Shown here: positions 1,665 to 60,668 of the stretch, one piece after another | Layout: each line of letters starts with the position of its first letter | Numbering within the stretch: the stretch's first letter is position 1 | Assembly (NCBI RefSeq): GCF_023544445.1 | Contig: NZ_JALPVJ010000001.1 | Coordinates: 496,001-560,000 of the forward strand | DNA: 64,000 nucleotides | Direction: 5' to 3' | Source: Actinoplanes sp. M2I2 | Lineage (GTDB): Bacteria; Actinomycetota; Actinomycetes; Mycobacteriales; Micromonosporaceae | Position numbers and translations under genes: made by a program | Notes under the pieces: model-generated | What the model saw: the letters and a program-made list of their open reading frames with translations, nothing else | Database searches by the model: none | What the model was told of the DNA's origin: nothing

Positions 1665-2312
1665 CTACCAGCCCCGGTCGCGCCATTCGGCCAGGTGCGG
1701 GCGCTCCCGGCCGAGGGTGGAGTCGTTGCCGTGGCCGGGGTAGAACCAGGTGTCGTCGGGCAGCCGGTTGAACAGCTTCAGCTCGACGTCGTCGAGCAGC
1801 GTCCGGAAGTTGTCCTTGTTGCCGCGGGTGTTGCCGACCCCGCCCGGGAAGAGGCTGTCCCCGGTGAAGAGGTGGGCGGTGCCCCGCGGGTCCTGGAAGA
1901 GCAGGGCGATCGACCCGGGCGTGTGGCCGACCAGGTGGATCACCTCGAGGGCGTGCTCACCCACCGCGACCAGGGCGCCCTCGCGCAGCGTGCCGGTGAC
2001 GACCGGGATCTCGGCGGCGTCGTCGGCATGGGCCAGCGAGGCGGCGCCGGTCGCCTCGACCACCTCGGCCAGCGCCTGCCAGTGGTCGCCGTGCCGGTGG
2101 GTCGTCACCACCGTCTCCAGCCCGGCCTCGCCGGCCAGGTCGATCAGCGTCCGGGCGTCGTTCGCCGCGTCGATCAGGATCTGCTCGTCACCGCTGCGCA
2201 GCAGGTAGGCGTTGTTGTCCATCTCGCCGACCGACACCTTGACGATCGTCAGGCTGCCCAGGTCGCGAACGGCCGGCTGCCCGCCGCGGGTCACTTCTCC
2301 GGTATAGGTCAT
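1665..2312 (-). CDS. MBL-fold metallohydrolase (glyoxalase II-like)
   Basis: A 215-residue metallo-beta-lactamase-fold hydrolase. The metal-binding signature reads THRHGDHW, giving the HxHxDH ligands, followed by VGHTPGS and FTGDSLF (third histidine and bridging aspartate) and a final YPGHG. The family hydrolyses thioesters such as S-lactoylglutathione analogues; actinobacteria use mycothiol or bacillithiol conjugates, so the exact substrate is open. The ATG at 2312 is preferred over one at 2339 because GAGGAG lies seven bases before it. It sits between the diguanylate cyclase and a DinB-like protein on the same strand. Confidence 0.85.
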   Translation of the reverse strand: MTYTGEVTRGGQPAVRDLGSLTIVKVSVGEMDNNAYLLRSGDEQILIDAANDARTLIDLAGEAGLETVVTTHRHGDHWQALAEVVEATGAASLAHADDAAEIPVVTGTLREGALVAVGEHALEVIHLVGHTPGSIALLFQDPRGTAHLFTGDSLFPGGVGNTRGNKDNFRTLLDDVELKLFNRLPDDTWFYPGHGNDSTLGRERPHLAEWRDRGW

Positions 2313-2329
2313 GTGCTCGCTCCTCGAGG

Positions 2330-3034
2330 TCACCGCCACCTCGCCGGTGTCGGGAGTACGCCGTCCGGCGACACGGTCAGGTCGGCGCCGTCGGCCCGGC
2401 CCGCGAGCCAGGCCGCGATCGATCTGGTCGGTCCGCCGACGACCGGCGGCCGGGGCTCGGCCCCGATGGTCAGCGCGTGCTCGATGCCGTACGGCCGCAG
2501 CTGCACCGCCGGCCAGTCGGCGCCCGCCCCGGCGACGATCTCGCGCAGCAGGCGCAGCGCGAAGGCGTCGGACCAGTCACCCGCCGTGTAGCCGAGCCCG
2601 AGGTCGACGTGGTGCACGGTCACCTCGCGCAGCCGCGCCCACGGCACCGCCGCGGCCGACTGCTCCAGCGGGGGCAGGAAGAACGCCCAGGCCGCGGCCG
2701 GCATGGCCGCCGCGGCGTCGGCGAAACGCTCGTGCGAGGCGCGGATGTCCTCGATCTGCTCGCGCAGCGGGCGGTCCGCGCCCTCCTGCAGGCCGGCCTC
2801 GCGCGCGTCGGGGGACGCGTACGGCGGGGTCTCGACCCCGGTGCGAGCCCAGGTCAGCAGGTTGGTCATCGCGTCGGCGTTGCGGGCCACATGGGTGAGC
2901 ACATGCCCGACGGTCCACCCGGGCAGCCGCGACGGCGAACCCACCGCCGCCGGTTCCAGGTCGGCCACCGTCCGCAGCAGGTCGTCGGTCGCCCGGTCGA
3001 CATCCGTCAACAAGACCAGCGGATCCATCGTCAT
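2330..3034 (-). CDS. maleylpyruvate isomerase family / DinB-like mycothiol-dependent protein
   Basis: About 234 residues. The first half has the MDMPI_N/DinB-like helical bundle pattern: a conserved LPGWTVGHVLTHVARNAD stretch containing the first metal-ligand histidine, and a VTVHHVDLGLGY segment with the HxxxD-type ligands. Family members bind a divalent metal and often use mycothiol as a thiol cofactor, as in mycothiol-dependent maleylpyruvate isomerase. The true substrate is unknown. Start is uncertain: ATGs at 3034 and 3028 lie within a 53-bp sequence that is duplicated upstream, and neither has a good ribosome site. Confidence 0.75.
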   Translation of the reverse strand: MTMDPLVLLTDVDRATDDLLRTVADLEPAAVGSPSRLPGWTVGHVLTHVARNADAMTNLLTWARTGVETPPYASPDAREAGLQEGADRPLREQIEDIRASHERFADAAAAMPAAAWAFFLPPLEQSAAAVPWARLREVTVHHVDLGLGYTAGDWSDAFALRLLREIVAGAGADWPAVQLRPYGIEHALTIGAEPRPPVVGGPTRSIAAWLAGRADGADLTVSPDGVLPTPARWR

Positions 3035-3141
3035 GACGGACTGCACCGAGCGCAGCGAGGGCCGGGACGGCATGACAACTGAAATTCAGTCATGACGGAC
3101 TGCACCGAGCGCAGCGAGGGCCGGGACGGCATGACAACTGA
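3030..3141. repeat. 53-bp direct repeat covering the start of the DinB-like gene
   Basis: Bases 3030-3082 and 3089-3141 are identical 53-bp copies, period 59. Each copy contains the GTCATGAC start region of the minus-strand gene, and the 6-bp spacer forms ACTGA-AAT-TCAGT with its flanks. The duplication places a second copy of the start codon and leader upstream of the gene, so it may affect initiation. Confidence 0.9.
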
Positions 3142-3338
3142 GATGGCGTCACGCCTTGAACCCTAGTGGAACGGAAATCGCTTTCGCTGGGGTAGCCGCG
3201 TCCGTACCGTCTGTGCTGACGCGTCGGTCAGATTCGCGGAGGAGGTGGGGAGCGTGCTGTTCGTTCTGGCGTCCCTTCACCCGGAGGCATCCGCCTGACC
3301 CGCGGGTCCGGCGTCCTCCCTTCCCGAAACGGGTTCCC

Positions 3339-54920: not shown

Positions 54921-55682
54921 TCAGAGCGCGCGGAGGTTGCCACCGTCGACGGCCACCGTGCTGCCGGTCATGTAGCTGGCCGCCGGGGAGAGCAGGAACG
55001 CCGCGACCCGGCCGAACTCGGCGGGCTCGCCCAGACGACGCATCGGGATGCTCCTGGCGACGGCCGCCGCCGCGGCGGCCGGGTCGTCGGCGGCGGCGAA
55101 GAGCTCCAGGTTGCGGTCGGTCAGGAAGCGGCCGGGGAGCAGGTTCAGGATGCGGACGCCGCGCGGGGCGTACTCGTCGGCCATGTCCTTCGCGGCCATG
55201 GCCAGGCCGGGGCGCAGGCCGTTGGAGAGCCCGAGGCCGGTCAGCGGCGTCTTGACCGACGTGGACAGGACCAGGCCGATCACGCCGCTTTCGGGCAGCG
55301 CCGAGGCGAAGACGCGGGCGGCCCGGATCGAGCCCAGGAACACCGTCTCGAACGCGTTGCGCCACTGCTCGTCGTCCATCGCGGCCGCGGTGCCGGGGGC
55401 CGGGCCGCCCACCGAGATGAGGGCGCCGTCGAAGCGGCCGAAGCGATCGCCGGCCGTGTCGATCAGCGTGCGCGGGGTCGCGGGGTCGGTCAGGTCGGCG
55501 GTCACCCCCACGGCGTGCTCGGCACCGCCGAGAGCGTCGACGGCTTCCGTGACCCGTTTCTCGTCGCGCGCGGAGATCACCACCTTGGCGCCGTCGGCGA
55601 CCAGCGCCTTGGCGGTGGCGTAGCCCAGCCCCCGCGAGGCTCCGGTCAGCACGTAGACGCGATCAGCCAGTCCGAGATCCAT
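54921..55682 (-). CDS. short-chain dehydrogenase/reductase family protein, atypical active site
   Basis: 253 residues. NAD(P)-binding TGASRGLG is at residues 13-20, the second-strand SARDEKR suggests NADP, and the VDGG near the C terminus is typical. However, the usual catalytic Tyr-x3-Lys is not found: after the catalytic Ser region (LSTSVKTP) the aligned segment reads SNGLRPGLA, so Ser and Arg stand where Tyr and Lys are expected. It may therefore be inactive as an oxidoreductase, or belong to a known divergent subgroup. Its 3' end is reiterated downstream as a tandem array. Confidence 0.88.
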   Translation of the reverse strand: MDLGLADRVYVLTGASRGLGYATAKALVADGAKVVISARDEKRVTEAVDALGGAEHAVGVTADLTDPATPRTLIDTAGDRFGRFDGALISVGGPAPGTAAAMDDEQWRNAFETVFLGSIRAARVFASALPESGVIGLVLSTSVKTPLTGLGLSNGLRPGLAMAAKDMADEYAPRGVRILNLLPGRFLTDRNLELFAAADDPAAAAAAVARSIPMRRLGEPAEFGRVAAFLLSPAASYMTGSTVAVDGGNLRAL

Positions 55683-55706
55683 GCCCCGATCCTCCCATCG
55701 CCACGG

Positions 55707-56456
55707 TCAGCGGTGCAGGGCGGCGGCGGTCGCCGGGTCGGCCGGCAGGAACGACTCGATCGCCAGCTCGGACAGGGTGACGTCCAGCGGTGTGCCCAGA
55801 ACCGACGTGATGCTGAAGAAGGCCAGATCGTCGAAGCGCAACGGCACGACCAGCCCGTGCGGCGGCTCGCCGGCCGTGGTGGCGCCGCCGGGGTAGGCCG
55901 TCAGCTCGGCGTGCAGCTCCCGCAGCACCGGGTCGTTCGTGGCCTCCGCCTGCCGGCCGAGGCGGTGCAGCACGTGCGTACGCCACTCGGGCAGGTTGCC
56001 GATGCGCGGCGCCATGCCGTCCGGGTGCAGTGAGAGACGCAGGACGTTGACCGGTGGTTCGAGCAGCCACGGCGCGCAGCCGTCGGTGAAGCGGGCCACC
56101 GCGTCGTTCGCGTCGACCATCGTCCAGTGCCGGTCGATCAGCACAGCCGGATACGGCGCATGCCCGACCAGCACGTCCCGCAGCGACGAGAGCACCGCTG
56201 CGAGCGGCGGCCCGTGCAGAGCCGTTTCCCCGTACGCCGGTGCGAAGCCCCCGGCCAGCAGGAGCTCGTTGCGGGACCGCAGGGGCACGCCCAGCTCCTC
56301 GGCCAGCCGCAGGATCATGTCGCGGGTCGGCCGGGAGCGCCCGGTCTCCAGGAACGACAGGTGCCGCGCGGACACCCCGGCCCGCACCGACAGCTCCAGC
56401 TGGCTCAGCCGCCGGTCGGTCCGCCACTCCCGCAGGAGCCCGCCCACCGCGCTCAT
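55707..56456 (-). CDS. XRE family regulator with MmyB-like ligand-binding domain
   Basis: 249 residues. The N-terminal helix-turn-helix (SQLELSVRAGVSARHLSFLETGRSRP, in part GVSARHLSFLETG) is followed by a PAS-like MLTR/MmyB ligand domain with APYPAVLIDRHWTMVDAND. Members of this group often control a neighbouring enzyme. The ATG at 56456 has GAGGAGGTG upstream. Divergent from the NTF2-like gene; a palindrome ATTACC-N5-GGTAAT lies between them. Confidence 0.9.
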   Translation of the reverse strand: MSAVGGLLREWRTDRRLSQLELSVRAGVSARHLSFLETGRSRPTRDMILRLAEELGVPLRSRNELLLAGGFAPAYGETALHGPPLAAVLSSLRDVLVGHAPYPAVLIDRHWTMVDANDAVARFTDGCAPWLLEPPVNVLRLSLHPDGMAPRIGNLPEWRTHVLHRLGRQAEATNDPVLRELHAELTAYPGGATTAGEPPHGLVVPLRFDDLAFFSITSVLGTPLDVTLSELAIESFLPADPATAAALHR

Positions 56457-56530
56457 CCCGCACCTCCTCCGCGCGCAGGGAAGGTCGAGCTGCGCCCCCG
56501 CAGCGTAGGCGCGCACCGGGAAGCGCGGCC

Positions 56531-56547
56531 ATTACCTCGCGGGTAAT
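56531..56547. promoter_or_regulatory. operator-like palindrome between XRE regulator and NTF2-like gene
   Basis: ATTACC-TCGCG-GGTAAT, perfect 6-bp arms, in the 157-base divergent region. The likely binding site of the XRE regulator. Confidence 0.5.
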
Positions 56548-56613
56548 CGACCGGCGTCCGTCCGCGGGCGACAGTGATCGTCATCAGCGACTTTCGTCCG
56601 GGAGGACAGAACG

Positions 56614-56979
56614 ATGAGCGACTTCGACGCCCTGGTGGACCGCTACCTCGCCGTGTGGAACGAGCCGGACCCGGTCACCCGCCGCAAGGCTGTGGACGAC
56701 CTCTTCGCCGACGACGTGCGCTACGTCGACCCGTTGGCCGCGGTCGAGGGCCGGGCGGCGCTCGATGGCCTGATCGGCGCCGTGCAGCAGCAGTTCCCCG
56801 GTCACACCCTGACCGTCGGCGGGCCGGTGGACGGCCACCACGACCAGGTGCGCTTCACCTGGAATCTGGCCGCCGGCGCCGGAGATCCCCTGGTTGTCGG
56901 CTTCGACGTGGCCGAGCTGGACGCCGGCGGGCGCATCCGCCGGGTGCATGGCTTCCTCGACAAGGTGCCCGCTGCGTAG
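56614..56979 (+). CDS. SnoaL/NTF2-like small protein
   Basis: 121 residues. Cone-shaped NTF2-like fold pattern: MSDFDALVDRYLAVWNEPD, then RRKAVDDLFADDVRYVDP and a central strand run ending FTWNLAAGAGDPLVVGFDVAEL. Families of this type include ketosteroid isomerase and polyketide cyclases. GGAGGACAGAACG precedes the ATG. Target of the divergent XRE regulator by position. Confidence 0.83.
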   Translation: MSDFDALVDRYLAVWNEPDPVTRRKAVDDLFADDVRYVDPLAAVEGRAALDGLIGAVQQQFPGHTLTVGGPVDGHHDQVRFTWNLAAGAGDPLVVGFDVAELDAGGRIRRVHGFLDKVPAA

Positions 56980-57033
56980 CAGGGGCCCGGCCACGCAGAG
57001 CGACGCCGACGACGCATAGGCCCTGGGGGTACG

Positions 57034-57492
57034 TCAGGGCCGTCGCAGAAGCCAGACCCGGCCGGCCACTTGGAGGGCCGCGGCGCCGGAGGTGACCCGC
57101 AGGGCCGGCCCGCGGCGGGAGCGGGGCGCCGACGCGCCGTCGTAGTGCCAGGCGGCCTCGCGCTCGGCCAGCTCGGCGGCGGCCACCGACGGCAGGCCGC
57201 CCCGCCGGGTGAGGTCGCGGGCCAGGTCCCAGCCGTCGCGCAGCGAGCCCTGAGCCGGGCGGGCCGCGGCCCACGCGGCGAACTCCCGCTTCCACCGGTC
57301 GCCGAAGCCGGCGGCGAGCATCGGCCACTGCCGCGCGACCTCACCGGCCCGCTTGCGCAGCAGAGCCACCCTCGCCGCCTCGAACCGGAAACCGTCGAAG
57401 CCTTCGGGTACGGGTCGACCGGCCGTGAGCGCCGCTACAAGCGCGGCCTGCCGCTCGCCCAGACCGCCCGCCCCGGCCGGGGGAGCGGTCAT
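57034..57492 (-). CDS. SCO6045-like partner protein of the DUF692 enzyme
   Basis: 152 residues, basic, no signal or membrane span, no cysteine. A helical N-terminal part (LGERQAALVAALTAGRPVPEGFD) resembles the DNA-binding-like partner domain found with DUF692 enzymes, where such partners bind the substrate peptide for the oxidase; the C-terminal half fits the SCO6045-like domain. The ATG overlaps the DUF692 stop by ATGA, so it is made together with the enzyme. A substrate-presenting role is inferred from position, not from a motif. Confidence 0.75.
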   Translation of the reverse strand: MTAPPAGAGGLGERQAALVAALTAGRPVPEGFDGFRFEAARVALLRKRAGEVARQWPMLAAGFGDRWKREFAAWAAARPAQGSLRDGWDLARDLTRRGGLPSVAAAELAEREAAWHYDGASAPRSRRGPALRVTSGAAALQVAGRVWLLRRP

Positions 57493-58316
57493 GTGACCGA
57501 GGGGTAGCCGGAGGCCTTCGCGATGGCGTCCAGCTCGGCCGCCAGGGCCGCAGCCGGCGGGTAGTCGCCGTCGCGTTCGAGCATCAGGGCCGGTGGGCGC
57601 TGCCGCTCACACAGGGCCGTGACCAGATCGAGCACCGGCTCGGGGACCGCGTCGGTGTGGGTGTCGTGGTAGAGGCCCTGGTGTTCGGCGCCGCCGGCTA
57701 CGTGCACGTAGGCCACCCGTTCCAACGGCAGGTGGTCGAGCAGCTCGGCCGGGTCGGTGCCCCGGTTGCGGGCGTTGGCGTAGACGTTGGCCACGTCCAG
57801 CAGCAGCCGGGCGCCGGAGCGGTCGAGGATCTCGGTGAGGAACTGGGCCTCGGTCAGCTCGTCGTCGGGCCAGTCGAACAGGGCGGCGATCGGCTCGAGG
57901 GCGATCGGCACCGGCAGCGACGCCTGCACCCGGCGGACGTTGGCGACCACCGCGTCGACCGCCTCGCGCGTGCGGGGCAGCGGCAGCAGGTGGCCCGCCT
58001 CGATGCCGCCCGCCCGCACGAACGCGATGTGTTCGCTGACCAGCGGCGCCTCCAGGCGCGCAGCCACCGCCGCGAAGTGCTCGACCCGGGCCGGGTCGAC
58101 CGGGTCGGCGCCGCCCAGCGACAGCCGGACGCCGTGCGGGATCACGGTGACGCCGCGGTCGAGAAGCTCTTGCAGGCCGGGCGGCAGCTCGCCGTGGGCG
58201 TGCACCGACTCGGCGACGACCTCGACGAAGCGCAGGCCGGGCAGCTCCGCCACGAAGCCGGCGATCTCCGGCCGCCAGCCGACCCCCACCCCGTACGGGT
58301 CAGCCACCGCAGCCAC
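57489..58316 (-). CDS. DUF692 / MNIO family multinuclear iron oxidase
   Basis: 275 residues, a TIM-barrel of the DUF692 family, now called MNIO, which uses two or three iron atoms and oxygen to modify cysteines or other residues in ribosomally made peptides (as in methanobactin and bufferin pathways). Likely metal-binding sites are visible as HGVRLSLG, SEHIAFV, ALEPI, LLLDVANVYANA, YVHVAGG, HDTHTD and LERDGDYP. The GTG start lies inside the last codons of the upstream membrane-protein gene (17-base overlap); a second GTG at 58307 is possible. Substrate not proven; the Cys/Gly-rich tail of the upstream protein is the best candidate. Confidence 0.9.
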   Translation of the reverse strand: MAAVADPYGVGVGWRPEIAGFVAELPGLRFVEVVAESVHAHGELPPGLQELLDRGVTVIPHGVRLSLGGADPVDPARVEHFAAVAARLEAPLVSEHIAFVRAGGIEAGHLLPLPRTREAVDAVVANVRRVQASLPVPIALEPIAALFDWPDDELTEAQFLTEILDRSGARLLLDVANVYANARNRGTDPAELLDHLPLERVAYVHVAGGAEHQGLYHDTHTDAVPEPVLDLVTALCERQRPPALMLERDGDYPPAAALAAELDAIAKASGYPSVT

Positions 58317-59208
58317 CCCCGCCGCCGCAACCGCCTCCGCCGCCTCCGCCGCCTCCGCAGGAGGAGCCGGAATCGCCCGAGCTGCCGCCGCCGCTGCTGT
58401 CGCCGCCGCCCGTGGTGCCGCCCGAAGCGGCGATGCGCTGAACCTCGGCCTCGGCCGCGAACGCCGGGTCCATCGAGTAGAGCGCGGCGCCGCCGTAGAG
58501 CGCGACGCCCATGGCCGCCCCGGTCGCGCCGTACGTCGCGTACGACGGGGAACTGCTCGGGGCCAGGTGGTGGTGCCGGCGGCGCAGGTCGCGCAGGCCC
58601 TTGACGGCCGCGTCGGTGGCCCAGCGGCGGGTGCGCAGCAGGGTCAGCGTCAGGATGAACGCGGCGATGGTGGCGACGATCAGGAAGCCGACCGGTTTGT
58701 CGTTGCTGAGACCGGCGAGGACCCGGGCGATCCCGATCGCGACGAGGGTGAGGCCGCCGAGCACCCAGACGCGGGCCTCGCGCATCTTGCCGGCGCTGAC
58801 GGCCAGGCCACCGCGCTCGAGGTGGTCGCGCAACTGCTCGATCGCGGAGGCGACCCACTGGTCGTGCTGCAGGTCGCGGGTGCGGGCGCCGTGGCCGGCG
58901 GCGTTGTAGACGGCGCTGTCGAGCGGCGTGACGCCGGCCGGCAGGGGGCCGGAGCGGACCAGCGTGCCGCCGGGGCCGGTGCCGAGCGCGCCGGCCGCTC
59001 GCAGACCACCCATCGACGAGTAGATCGCCAGCCGGTCGCCGCCGTTGAGATAGGCCACCTGCTGCGGGCCGAGGTGGTCGACCTGGGCCGTGCGGTCGCC
59101 ACGGAACAACGCCTTGCGGTGGAACGCCGCGATGATCACGATCGCGATCATCGCGCCGAGGTAGTAGGTGAGGAAGGTCGGGCCGGAGATGCCCCAGGTG
59201 TCGTTCAT
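58300..59208 (-). CDS. TIGR04222-like membrane protein with Gly/Cys-rich tail
   Basis: About 302 residues. One membrane segment near the N terminus (about 10-28), a soluble or amphipathic middle with PQQVAYLNGGDRLA and DSAVYNA, two further spans (about 128-146, 152-170), and a basic region before the tail. The last 40 residues are almost wholly Gly and Ser with just three cysteines (284, 294, 300), in GSSCG, GGCGG and GGCGG contexts, ending CGG. Such tails are typical of TIGR04222 proteins encoded beside DUF692 enzymes. ATG at 59208 with AGGAAGG upstream. Its end overlaps the DUF692 gene. I infer that the tail is the substrate of the enzyme. Confidence 0.85.
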   Translation of the reverse strand: MNDTWGISGPTFLTYYLGAMIAIVIIAAFHRKALFRGDRTAQVDHLGPQQVAYLNGGDRLAIYSSMGGLRAAGALGTGPGGTLVRSGPLPAGVTPLDSAVYNAAGHGARTRDLQHDQWVASAIEQLRDHLERGGLAVSAGKMREARVWVLGGLTLVAIGIARVLAGLSNDKPVGFLIVATIAAFILTLTLLRTRRWATDAAVKGLRDLRRRHHHLAPSSSPSYATYGATGAAMGVALYGGAALYSMDPAFAAEAEVQRIAASGGTTGGGDSSGGGSSGDSGSSCGGGGGGGGGCGGGGGCGG

Positions 59209-59275
59209 GGGCTGGGCCTTCCTGCTCGTCGCGGCGCTCAGGCCCTCATTGTGCAGAGTGACGCAAGGCCTGTGA

Positions 59276-59845
59276 TCAGGCCCTTCGGACGGCTTCCTCG
59301 ACCAGATCGAGGACCCGGCGGAGCTCTCCGGGCGGCCGGCCGGTGGCCAGGTGCAAAACGAGCCCGTCATAGGCCAGCTCGAGGAACTGGGTGAGCACCT
59401 CGACCGGGACGTCCTCGCGCAGCACACCGGCCTCGCGCTGGCGCTCGAGCCGGTCGCGGGTGGCGCCGGCGATGGCCGCGGAGCGTTCGGCCCAGCGCTG
59501 GGCGAACGCCGGGTCGGTGCGGAGCCGGCGCGACACCTCGAGCTGGGTGCCGAGCCAGCCGGCGGTGTCGCCCTCGCTGCCGCCGGCCCGGGCCAGCAGG
59601 TCACGCATCACCTGGACGAGGCCGTTGCGGGCCACCGTCTCGACCATCGCGGCCGCGTCGTCCTCGGCGACGGCCAGGAACAGCGATTCCTTGTCACGAA
59701 AATGGTGGAAAATCGCACCACGGGACAGCCCGGTTGCGTCCTCGAGCCGCCGTACTGTCGCACCCTCGTAGCCGAACCGCGCGAAACAGTCGCGGGCCGC
59801 GGCGAGGATCTCGGTGCGACGGGCGTCCAGCTGGTCCTGACTCAC
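59276..59845 (-). CDS. acnR: AcnR-like TetR family regulator
   Basis: About 189 residues. N-terminal TetR helix-turn-helix with the sequence FGYEGATVRRLEDATGLSRGAIFHHF (in part: TVRRLEDATGLSRGAIF), then DKESLFLAVAEDDA and VSRRLRTDPAF, close to AcnR, the citrate-sensing repressor of aconitase in corynebacteria. No aconitase gene is in this window, so the target may lie elsewhere or be different. GTG at 59845 has AGGAG about nine bases upstream; a GTG at 59854 is an alternative. The divergent region to the HAD gene holds the palindrome CGTACGTACG at 59893-59902. Confidence 0.85.
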   Translation of the reverse strand: MSQDQLDARRTEILAAARDCFARFGYEGATVRRLEDATGLSRGAIFHHFRDKESLFLAVAEDDAAAMVETVARNGLVQVMRDLLARAGGSEGDTAGWLGTQLEVSRRLRTDPAFAQRWAERSAAIAGATRDRLERQREAGVLREDVPVEVLTQFLELAYDGLVLHLATGRPPGELRRVLDLVEEAVRRA

Positions 59846-59892
59846 TCTGGGCACTCCTGGATCGTGTCACGTGGGCCCTTTCGCATGCAATC

Positions 59893-59902
59893 CGTACGTA
59901 CG
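59893..59902. promoter_or_regulatory. palindrome CGTACGTACG in the acnR-HAD divergent region
   Basis: A perfect 10-bp palindrome, 48 bases before the acnR start. It includes the GTAC core seen in AcnR sites of other actinobacteria. Candidate autoregulatory operator. Confidence 0.4.
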
Positions 59903-60017
59903 TCTTGGCAAGGGAGCCGACAGCGACGGACGGATAGTACGAATTCCGACATAACGCCCTTAGTTGTTAACAGTGCTGGACTGTTCGCTGCCCTCCTCGC
60001 TCACGTAAAGTGCCCGG

Positions 60018-60668
60018 GTGCCTCTTGTCCTGATAGCTCTCGACGACACTCTGCTCGACCGCAGCGGTGCGTTCCGGCTGTGGGCAAAAGGATTCCTCGA
60101 TGAGATCGGCGCGCCCCAGGACGACCTGGACTGGTTACTGTCCGTCGATGCCGATGGATTGACCTCGCGCTGGGACCTGGCCGATCTGATCCGCGAGCGC
60201 TATCAGCTGACCATCCCCTCGATCGACGTGGTCGAGGAGTTGCACGAGGGCCCGCTGGCCTTCGAGAAGCTCGACCCGCTGGTCGGCTGCGCGCTGCAGA
60301 TCGCCGGGGACGCCGGCCTGGTCCCGGTGGTGGTCACCAACGGCCAGGCCGAGATCCAGGACAGCCGCATCCGGCGGACGGGGTTGGACCGCTATGTCGC
60401 CGACTGGGTGATCTCGGAGCGGGCCGGGGTGAGCAAGCCCAATCCGCGCATCTTCGCGCTCGCCGCGCAGCGGGTACGGATGCGCCTGGGTGGCGCCTGG
60501 GTGGTCGGCGACAGCCCCGAGGCCGACATCGGCGGCGCCGCGGCCATGGGCCTGCCCAGCGTCTGGCTGCATCGCGGCCGCGAGTGGACCGACAACCGGT
60601 TCGCGCCGACCCAGATCGTGGGCAACGTCATCCAGGGGATCTCGGCCATCATGGCCGCCGCGAAATAA
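60018..60668 (+). CDS. HAD-like protein without the nucleophilic Asp
   Basis: 216 residues of the haloacid dehalogenase superfamily. Motif II VVVTNGQ, motif III lysine SKPNPRIF and motif IV VVGDSPEADIGGA are all present. Motif I reads IALDDTLLD, with Ala where the nucleophilic Asp of the DxDxT motif is expected, so phosphatase activity through an aspartyl intermediate should be lost. It may be a regulatory or binding protein. GTG at 60018, with TAAAGT seven bases upstream, so probably leaderless. Confidence 0.88.
   Translation: MPLVLIALDDTLLDRSGAFRLWAKGFLDEIGAPQDDLDWLLSVDADGLTSRWDLADLIRERYQLTIPSIDVVEELHEGPLAFEKLDPLVGCALQIAGDAGLVPVVVTNGQAEIQDSRIRRTGLDRYVADWVISERAGVSKPNPRIFALAAQRVRMRLGGAWVVGDSPEADIGGAAAMGLPSVWLHRGREWTDNRFAPTQIVGNVIQGISAIMAAAK

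Follow-up and report, generated by a model that had tools for sequence, protein, structure and literature searches.

Which protein does the MNIO (DUF692) enzyme of a three-gene actinobacterial cassette act on, and on which side of the membrane does its target lie? The question arises in a window of 64,000 nt, the whole stretch of DNA analysed here, from the soil actinobacterium Actinoplanes sp. M2I2 (contig NZ_JALPVJ010000001.1, positions 496,001-560,000). The Cys-rich tails of TIGR04222 membrane proteins were proposed as MNIO substrates in 2025 by Antoine et al. (PMC12452194), and the TIGR04222-MNIO-PME type 2 clusters described in the available part of that paper have the same three components as the cassette, which therefore belongs to a kind already proposed in print. 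The same text illustrates a Micromonospora TIGR04222 protein of 300 aa, and its model B is a PME-type 2 protein of 158 aa from Micromonospora matsumotoense; the partner at the M. matsumotoense locus in our set (L037) is also 158 aa long, a comparison of length only. The MNIO-partner fusions, the relation to DUF2207, and the counts of tails against MNIO genes reported below were not found in that part of PMC12452194.

Gene content and the cysteine-bearing tail

All three genes are read directly from the minus strand. Gene 1 (58300..59208) starts with ATG and encodes a 302-aa membrane protein, the presumed substrate, which matches NCBIfam TIGR04222 at 143.6 bits against a cut-off of 43. Gene 2 (57489..58316) starts with GTG and encodes a 275-aa MNIO enzyme (Pfam PF05114, 281 bits, cut-off 25), while gene 3 (57034..57492, ATG) encodes a basic PME-type 2-like partner of 152 aa with a pI of 11.6. 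Genes 1 and 2 overlap by 17 bases and genes 2 and 3 by 4, and since gene 2 has a second in-frame GTG nine bases in, the first overlap could be 8. The first-pass annotation had described this arrangement, the small basic third protein, and a membrane protein whose Gly/Ser tail has exactly three cysteines, at 284, 294, and 300, and the open reading frames and sequence bear it out; of the family names it gave, TIGR04222 and DUF692 are matched by profiles and SCO6045 is not, no family so named being hit. A TetR-type regulator (59276..59854, minus strand; Pfam TetR_N) lies 67 bases upstream and possibly shares one transcript with the cassette. Among the best 80 of 353 loci, 76 have a relative inside the fetched stretch.

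The enzyme retains the conserved site residues. Residues H61, H96, E141, D174, N177, H205, D218, and H220 are invariant in all 93 MNIO rows, 91 of them distinct, with D249 present in 92/92 and E247 in 91/92; this His/Asp/Glu/Asn set presumably includes the iron ligands. Relatives in the PDB are 3bww and 8hci/8hi7/8hi8. Against the bufferin maturase model MNIO_BufB, gene 2 scores 194.8 bits, short of the cut-off of 310.

Gene 3 finds no counterpart in Pfam or NCBIfam at E<=1, and among its 45 aligned relatives no Pfam family is matched by more than one member. It follows the MNIO gene directly and lacks a DUF2063 signature, which places it in the position of a PME-type 2 protein; a distant relative (L252) matches DUF2063 at E 0.0023 and 18.6 bits, below the cut-off of 27.2. 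Its predicted structure (pLDDT 92.2) has a helical domain followed by three strands. When 254 chains were re-aligned, MbnC ranked first (Z 5.2, rmsd 5.0, 126 aligned) and NGO1945 (3dee) second (Z 4.6, rmsd 4.1, 105 aligned), both weak scores below the tool's advised trust level, and the next chain had Z 2.9; Foldseek alone gave no significant match in the PDB. Of 91 distinct MNIO places, 86 have the partner, and at 42 it is fused to the enzyme (27 in family f4, 11 in f80, 4 in genomes with no family recorded). The five places without it are two contig or stretch ends (L122, L198), two high-scoring MNIOs of another type (L253, L254), and L234. A protein search of the fusion against plasmid records returned 340 records, each of which covered less than 80% of it. 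The partner role previously suggested for gene 3 is thus supported by the fusion and by the weak fold match to the MNIO partners MbnC and NGO1945.

The tail itself (residues 263-302; 58303..58422, minus strand) holds all the cysteines of gene 1 and ends in Cys-Gly-Gly. It is modelled with low confidence, the block means being 56 and below. As a control for chance, 420 stop-to-stop frames of at least 80 codons in the window were scanned, and gene 1 alone ends in a Gly/Ser tail containing three or more Cys. A separate short precursor was considered and set aside, as no further tail of this type was seen among those frames, in keeping with the earlier view that the tail, and not such a precursor, is the substrate.

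Relatives were taken from the best 80 of 353 loci, 74 of which yielded a usable best-matching TIGR04222 copy; left out were four cut at a contig end, L075 (TIGR04222 gene lost), and L059 (tail split over two frames). In these 74 copies and that of the window, Cys-Gly-Gly forms the last three residues in 75/75, and the last 60 residues contain three to seven Cys in 74 and two in one. The residue after each tail Cys is Gly (263) or Ser (47) and never any other, and the cysteines are mostly six apart. Extra TIGR04222 copies at L036 and L069 have tails with Cys that lack the Cys-Gly-Gly end. Across the same 80 Micromonosporaceae loci, 74 of 6730 frames carry a Cys tail of this type and 72 of the 74 end in CGG, so that no second kind of Cys-tailed gene is seen among the tail-bearing frames scanned.

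Topology and relatives of the membrane protein

The predicted topology places one transmembrane segment near the N-terminus and a hairpin within a soluble domain. Segment 1 (residues 9-35; 59104..59184), predicted to run from out to in, exceeds a hydropathy of 1.6 in 93% of 197 relatives. The N-half of the soluble domain (residues 45-138; 58795..59076), related to DUF2207_C and GOLPH3-like according to hhalign and fold matches, is followed by the inserted hairpin of helices 139-168 and 174-192 (58633..58794), whose hydropathy exceeds 1.6 in 91% and 99% of 198 relatives, and then by the C-half (residues 197-262; 58423..58620), all on the minus strand. Within the C-half, helices 223-246 reach a hydropathy window value of 1.09, and exceed 1.6 in just 12% of 208 relatives; because of this weak hydropathy they are judged not to cross the membrane. 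Hydropathy therefore suggests three spans rather than four. Lys and Arg are richer on the domain-side flanks in 75/75 members of the Micromonosporaceae set and in 163 of 186 usable rows (of 209).

Comparison by hhalign of TIGR04222 with 15 DUF2207-like C-terminal regions gave a probability of 95 and E 2.6e-8 over residues 3-246; the reversed control gave E 0.094 at default settings, the forward run having used a lower alignment threshold. Gene 1 itself has no Pfam match at E<=1, and hence none to PF09972, the DUF2207 N-terminal domain, while PF20990, the C-terminal model, weakly matches 18 of 45 relatives (best E 0.00024). In DUF2207 proteins (PF09972 plus PF20990) the membrane spans and soluble domain align with TIGR04222 and both have a Gly-rich end, but the N-domain, which precedes the aligned region in 7/7 DUF2207-like proteins scanned, is lacking from TIGR04222, and the Gly-rich end of ten DUF2207-like proteins examined contains no Cys. 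The N-domain of these proteins looks exported. TIGR04222 would appear to be related to the DUF2207 C-terminal domain and to have no counterpart of the exported N-domain.

A resemblance to GOLPH3 was also followed. The gene 1 model matches GOLPH3 folds with Z 6.6 and 6.1 (143-144 aligned, approximately residues 45-259), below the tool's advised trust level; among the re-aligned folds the top rows are helix bundles lying on the membrane helices, with GOLPH3 at ranks 15 and 22, and Foldseek alone found no significant match for the model in the PDB. A shallow hhalign alignment to GOLPH3 was not significant; with a deeper alignment the N-half reached E 1.2e-4 to 4.6e-5, and no match came from the C-half on its own. 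PF05719 (GPP34/GOLPH3) is not matched at E<=1, and a literature search for GPP34/GOLPH3 with Streptomyces returned, among the matches listed, no title tying them to TIGR04222. GOLPH3 was set aside as the family, as a resemblance of fold only; the relation to the DUF2207 C-terminal region is the better one.

From the DUF2207 C-terminal homology, the hydropathy, and the charge distribution, we infer that the soluble domain and tail lie on the cytoplasmic face, and not in the periplasm, where the available part of PMC12452194 places the tail and large domain. The first-pass annotation is silent on the side of the membrane. It has to be asked whether the tail is an MNIO substrate that ends up outside, modified before the last segment inserts and acting in a bufferin-like way on the outer face. 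This is what PMC12452194 predicts, as far as its available text goes, and the same text describes bufferins as exported and holding copper in the periplasm, but three spans instead of four, a charge bias that puts the domain side inside, and homology to a region that follows an exported-looking domain make an outer-face tail improbable.

Co-occurrence of cysteine tails with MNIO genes

Two genome samples supplied 229 TIGR04222 domains among the matches listed. The first comprised 134 listed matches over the cut-off, with G329, which exceeds it only jointly with its neighbours, left out; from the second, five over-cut-off rows were dropped, namely G702 (internal stop, contig start), a pair on G666:C288 (contig break), and two rows of a further G633 domain that lies beyond the fetched stretch. 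A tail counted as a Cys tail only if Gly/Ser/Cys/Asp also made up at least 50% of its last 30 residues, a rule under which the G277 and G715 rows fall out; the Gly-rich class was set at 60%, with Cys counted among its letters. G433, whose neighbourhood is obscured by a contig break, was left out of the adjacency count, and G573, 5.7 kb from its MNIO, was scored as non-adjacent. Three assignments were made by hand: G312 as adjacent, an MNIO start being visible at the contig edge; G408 as having no Cys, the tail being a read-through of an assembly gap; and G697, with three Cys of which one follows Arg, as a Cys tail in the combined-sample test only.

Among these listed domains, with one row left out, a Cys tail is observed in 115 of 135 copies adjacent to an MNIO gene, in 11 of 43 with an MNIO elsewhere in the genome (12/43 without the 50% composition rule), and in none of 50 in genomes without MNIO. 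For Gly-rich tails only, the counts are 115/115, 11/22, and 0/16, and all 115 have at least three Cys. Three rows in the MNIO-less class were flagged at first, one with an MNIO cut by the contig end right behind the tail, one an assembly-gap read-through, and one not Gly-rich, leaving no Cys/Gly tail in the 44 MNIO-less genomes (50 domains among the matches listed). One observation that the first-pass annotation had named as refuting it, the same cysteines in a genome with no DUF692 gene, was accordingly looked for and not made. The comparison it had suggested, of the cysteines with the presence of a neighbouring DUF692 gene, also shows the 11 listed Cys tails in genomes whose MNIO is non-adjacent, and these count against the reading.

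Adjacent and non-adjacent copies occur together in 23 genomes; the Cys tail is on the adjacent copy only in 14 of these, on the non-adjacent only in 0, on both in 4, and on neither in 5. Tree-based independent pairs (n=10) gave 6.3 differing the same way, 0.1 the opposite way, and 3.6 with no difference (median p 0.031; p 0.016 with roles reversed), which modestly supports the association. The test was not significant when the first sample was taken by itself (p 0.25 from 6 pairs, with 2 pairs available for Gly-rich tails) nor, for both samples, with MNIO anywhere in the genome (p 0.125) or with Gly-rich tails only (p 0.125).

The association has exceptions. Of the MNIO-adjacent domains among the matches listed, 20 lack a Cys tail (18 in f4, one in f6, and one in f80), and 13 f4 genomes have only tail-less copies beside MNIO; in the nine of these where the fetched stretch includes the MNIO, no Cys-tailed frame occurs beside the enzyme to the end of that stretch. 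At L075 the MNIO and partner are kept and the TIGR04222 domain is lost. Together with the tail-less f4 neighbours, this indicates that an MNIO can persist without an adjoining Cys tail, and it suits a reading in which the cysteines are not oxidised but bind metal as plain thiols, perhaps feeding iron to the MNIO or buffering copper, while the enzyme acts on something else. We consider this unlikely: characterised MNIOs, in the portions of the literature available, act on peptide residues, and the 6730 frames at the best 80 of 353 loci offer no second kind of Cys-tailed gene. The idea of the tail as substrate is partly supported: Cys tails track MNIO, and the 18 tail-less neighbours in f4 weigh against it.

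Tail-less TIGR04222 adjoins MNIO-partner fusions in some genomes, and five f80 genomes (G328, G337, G423, G549, G572) have no Cys-tailed frame near their MNIO loci, as would be expected if TIGR04222 were a membrane scaffold for the enzyme and the true substrate a separate peptide or protein encoded elsewhere; the contrast between 115/135 and 0/50 listed domains makes such a scaffold very unlikely. Finally, meaningless drift in a Gly-codon repeat (GGC to TGC), already disfavoured, accords with a low-complexity tail that varies among relatives, but is scarcely credible given the Cys-Gly-Gly end in every best copy and three Cys in 0/16 MNIO-less Gly-rich tails against 115/115 beside MNIO.

A proposed membrane-tethered substrate and its implications

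The account we favour, with moderate confidence, is that the C-terminal Gly/Ser tail of the TIGR04222 protein is itself the substrate of the MNIO and its partner. The MNIO would dock to the partner and oxidise Cys in the repeated [GS]-Cys-[GS] units of a tail held, with its domain, on the cytoplasmic side of three spans, and the product would be a membrane-tethered tail that probably binds metal. Both the modification and the metal binding are proposed by analogy with MNIO peptides that, according to the available parts of PMC12668002 and PMC12452194, bind copper via Cys-derived thiooxazoles.

Comparison with other systems brings out what would be distinctive. Bufferins and captophorins (MNIO plus PME type 1) share with the cassette an MNIO enzyme and a modified stretch in which Cys is followed by Gly, but their precursors carry a signal peptide for export and are served by a DUF2063 partner, whereas here an integral membrane protein would be the substrate and the partner, a short protein, has no DUF2063 signature. 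The methanobactin system MbnABC offers the partner's likeness to MbnC; the methanobactin precursor is a short separate peptide.

A fuller evolutionary version can be offered only tentatively, and we would place it slightly below even: MNIO chemistry may have come to operate on the cytoplasmic membrane face, where the ancestral Gly tail of a DUF2207-related protein gained MNIO-processed Cys-Gly units and became a tethered intracellular metal trap or sensor, and not an exported peptide. If the tail is cytoplasmic, it can be reached by a cytoplasmic enzyme without an export step and its function concerns the cell interior, so that different experiments make sense from those suggested by the published side. 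Should the favoured account hold, MNIO enzymes would modify full-size membrane proteins and not just small exported peptides, an integral membrane protein would serve as substrate on the side opposite to that predicted, and a cytoplasmic, membrane-bound counterpart of the copper-binding bufferins would be widespread in the Actinomycetota.

Gene content and neighbourhood of the cassette

Three minus-strand genes, with overlaps of 17 bases between the first and second and 4 bases between the second and third, encode a membrane protein that scores far over the cut-off of NCBIfam TIGR04222 (59208-58300), a DUF692/MNIO enzyme (58316-57489, Pfam PF05114), and a small basic protein identified as an open reading frame (57492-57034), for which no match was found in Pfam or NCBIfam at E ≤ 1. 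The cysteines of the first protein (284, 294, and 300) all lie inside its Gly/Ser tail. This arrangement had been described in a first-pass annotation, and it is borne out by the open reading frames, family models, and residue positions. A search of the 420 frames of 80 or more codons in the window gave no second tail of this type. Among the matches listed, the closest named relatives of the MNIO are from Paractinoplanes and other Micromonosporaceae. The genome itself contains a single MNIO gene and two matches to TIGR04222; the one outside the cassette (locus L002, contig C5) is a tail-less protein of 197 amino acids on a contig without an MNIO gene.

The region 54921-60668 is a neighbourhood kept across Micromonosporaceae. 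Within the best 80 of 353 loci, relatives of a short-chain dehydrogenase (54921-55682) and of a TetR gene (59276-59854) are each found at 76, and relatives of the gene at 60018-60668 at 73.

The cassette is a sound observation of a kind of system already proposed in print. In the available text of PMC12452194, TIGR04222 proteins are putative MNIO substrates with Ser/Gly-rich, cysteine-bearing C-termini, and PME-type 2 partners are named. About one-third of the genomes holding TIGR04222 are described there as having no MNIO gene, and a C-proximal cysteine as absent from more than one-quarter of TIGR04222 proteins. The same available text contains no count of whether the cysteine tails are those that accompany an MNIO.

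Co-occurrence of cysteine tails and MNIO genes

Two samples of TIGR04222 domains over the cut-off were taken among the matches listed: 134 domains from 394 Actinomycetes genomes, and 95 more from 150 genomes of one family. Each frame was read to its stop, and cysteines were scored in Gly/Ser context. Cysteine tails largely track the MNIO among these matches: they are present on 115 and absent from 20 of the 135 domains less than 4 kb from an MNIO gene, present on 11 and absent from 32 where the MNIO is elsewhere in the genome, and found on none of the 50 domains in MNIO-less genomes. When only Gly-rich tails in these matches are considered, cysteines occur in 115/115, 11/22, and 0/16, respectively. 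Per genome (n = 167, matches listed), 103 have both an MNIO and a cysteine tail, 20 an MNIO alone, 44 neither, and 0 a cysteine tail alone. The first-pass annotation, which proposed the tail as the MNIO substrate, had set cysteine tails in MNIO-less genomes against its own proposal; none was found in the 44 such genomes among the matches listed. In 23 genomes with both adjacent and non-adjacent copies, the cysteine tail is only on the adjacent copy in 14, only on the other in 0, on both in 4, and on neither in 5.

Three rows flagged by script as cysteine tails without an MNIO were inspected individually and rejected: in one the contig stops inside an MNIO gene directly behind the tail, in another the frame passes through an assembly gap, and the third (genome G715) is not Gly-rich.

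Related genomes are not independent, and the domain counts were accompanied by tree-based tests. The first-sample tree provided 6 independent pairs (p 0.25). Both samples together provided 10: 6.3 agreed in direction, 0.1 ran counter to it, and 3.6 showed no difference (median p 0.031; p 0.016 with roles reversed). Across both samples, the tests using an MNIO anywhere in the genome and using Gly-rich tails only were not significant (p 0.125 each).

The pairing is not universal, as exceptions in families f4 and f80 make clear. Among the matches listed, f4, a family of large genomes that are probably Streptomyces, holds 18 of the 20 adjacent tail-less domains. In 13 of its genomes, every copy adjoining the MNIO is tail-less; in the 9 of these 13 whose stretch covers the MNIO, no cysteine-tailed frame was found within that stretch. 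The MNIO and partner form one fused gene at both loci that were read completely. At L138 and L255 (f4), an MNIO-partner fusion adjoins a TIGR04222 protein without a cysteine tail, and at L255 the genes flanking the fusion on both sides encode mutually similar proteins, again without one. In five f80 genomes (G328, G337, G423, G549, and G572), cysteine-tailed TIGR04222 genes are far from the MNIO-partner pair, and any modification would therefore act in trans. At locus L205 (genome G277), a cysteine-tailed TIGR04222 frame (2276-3292, plus strand) continues in frame into a partner remnant with the MNIO absent between them, which looks like a deletion scar.

Tail sequence and membrane side

Tails were compared using the usable best copy from 74 of the 80 Micromonosporaceae loci (best 80 of 353) and that of the window. 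Cys-Gly-Gly forms the C-terminus of all 75, and the final 60 residues contain three to seven cysteines in 74 of them and two in the other. A spacing of six is commonest, and the residue after each cysteine is Gly or Ser without exception. At two loci (L036, 4952-5992; L069, 3725-5992), a second TIGR04222-type frame adjoining the MNIO has a cysteine tail ending in Gly-Gln or Gly-Ser, in tandem with a copy ending in Cys-Gly-Gly. At L075 (upstream of 6001), the MNIO and partner are present and the TIGR04222 domain is absent; a short Gly-rich stretch with one cysteine, immediately preceding the MNIO, resembles what is left of a tail.

The TIGR04222 model has helices at 9-35, 139-168, and 174-192, plus a broken helix at 223-246. 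The first three exceed a hydropathy of 1.6 in 93, 91, and 99% of relatives, respectively, but the fourth does so in 12%. With three spans, the soluble domain and tail would share one face of the membrane. Lys/Arg are more frequent on that face in 75/75 of the Micromonosporaceae set and, among 209 rows of which 186 were usable, in 163; some N-termini in these rows are uncertain. Furthermore, TIGR04222 residues 3-246 align with 15 DUF2207-like proteins in their C-terminal regions (E 2.6e-8, against 0.094 for a reversed control), and a DUF2207 N-domain precedes the aligned region in 7/7 scanned. The N-terminus of one DUF2207-like protein (L099), read by eye, resembles a signal peptide; this would place the N-domain outside and the next domain and the tail inside. 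These sequence features suggest that the TIGR04222 tail is probably on the cytoplasmic face, in contradiction to the periplasmic tail predicted in the available text of PMC12452194, which would need correcting. Residues 45-259 of the TIGR04222 model resemble GOLPH3 (Z 6.6 and 6.1 over 143-144 aligned residues; ranks 15 and 22), a predicted fold that is compatible with a cytoplasmic domain and not decisive.

Partner, enzyme, and possible function

A profile of the small partner matches 86 of 91 distinct MNIO places. Its fusion to the MNIO at 42 of the 91 (27 in f4, 11 in f80, and 4 with family not noted) argues that the two act together, as the first-pass annotation had supposed. Likeness of fold is fainter: the predicted partner structure (pLDDT 92.2), re-aligned to 254 solved chains, ranked the known MNIO partners MbnC first (Z 5.2) and NGO1945 second (Z 4.6), weak scores with the next at Z 2.9, and Foldseek's own ranking gave no significant match. 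The MNIO metal site looks intact because its residues are near-invariant across the aligned rows: H61, H96, E141, D174, N177, H205, D218, and H220 in 93/93 rows (91 distinct), D249 in 92/92, and E247 in 91/92. Solved relatives by sequence are 3bww, 8hci, 8hi7, and 8hi8.

The small third gene may correspond to SCO6045, the name it received in the first-pass annotation. Streptomyces coelicolor SCO6045 is described in the available text of PMC4991794 as up 3-fold under peroxide, alongside cysteine-synthesis genes; for the HbpS-SenS-SenR mutant, that text records no up-regulated gene. The peroxide response offers a possible lead on cassette function by way of this shared name.

With the exceptions described, the proposal that the tail is the substrate passes the comparison with MNIO-less genomes. 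Characterized MNIO relatives make copper-binding thiooxazoles (PMC12668002, as available). For the cassette, gene content, the conserved metal site, the fusion, and the co-occurrence are observed; membrane side, substrate, chemistry, and metal binding are proposed. The partner would dock on the MNIO, which would oxidize cysteines within the [GS]-Cys-[GS] units that the TIGR04222 tail carries on the cytoplasmic side; the product would be a membrane-tethered tail that probably binds metal.
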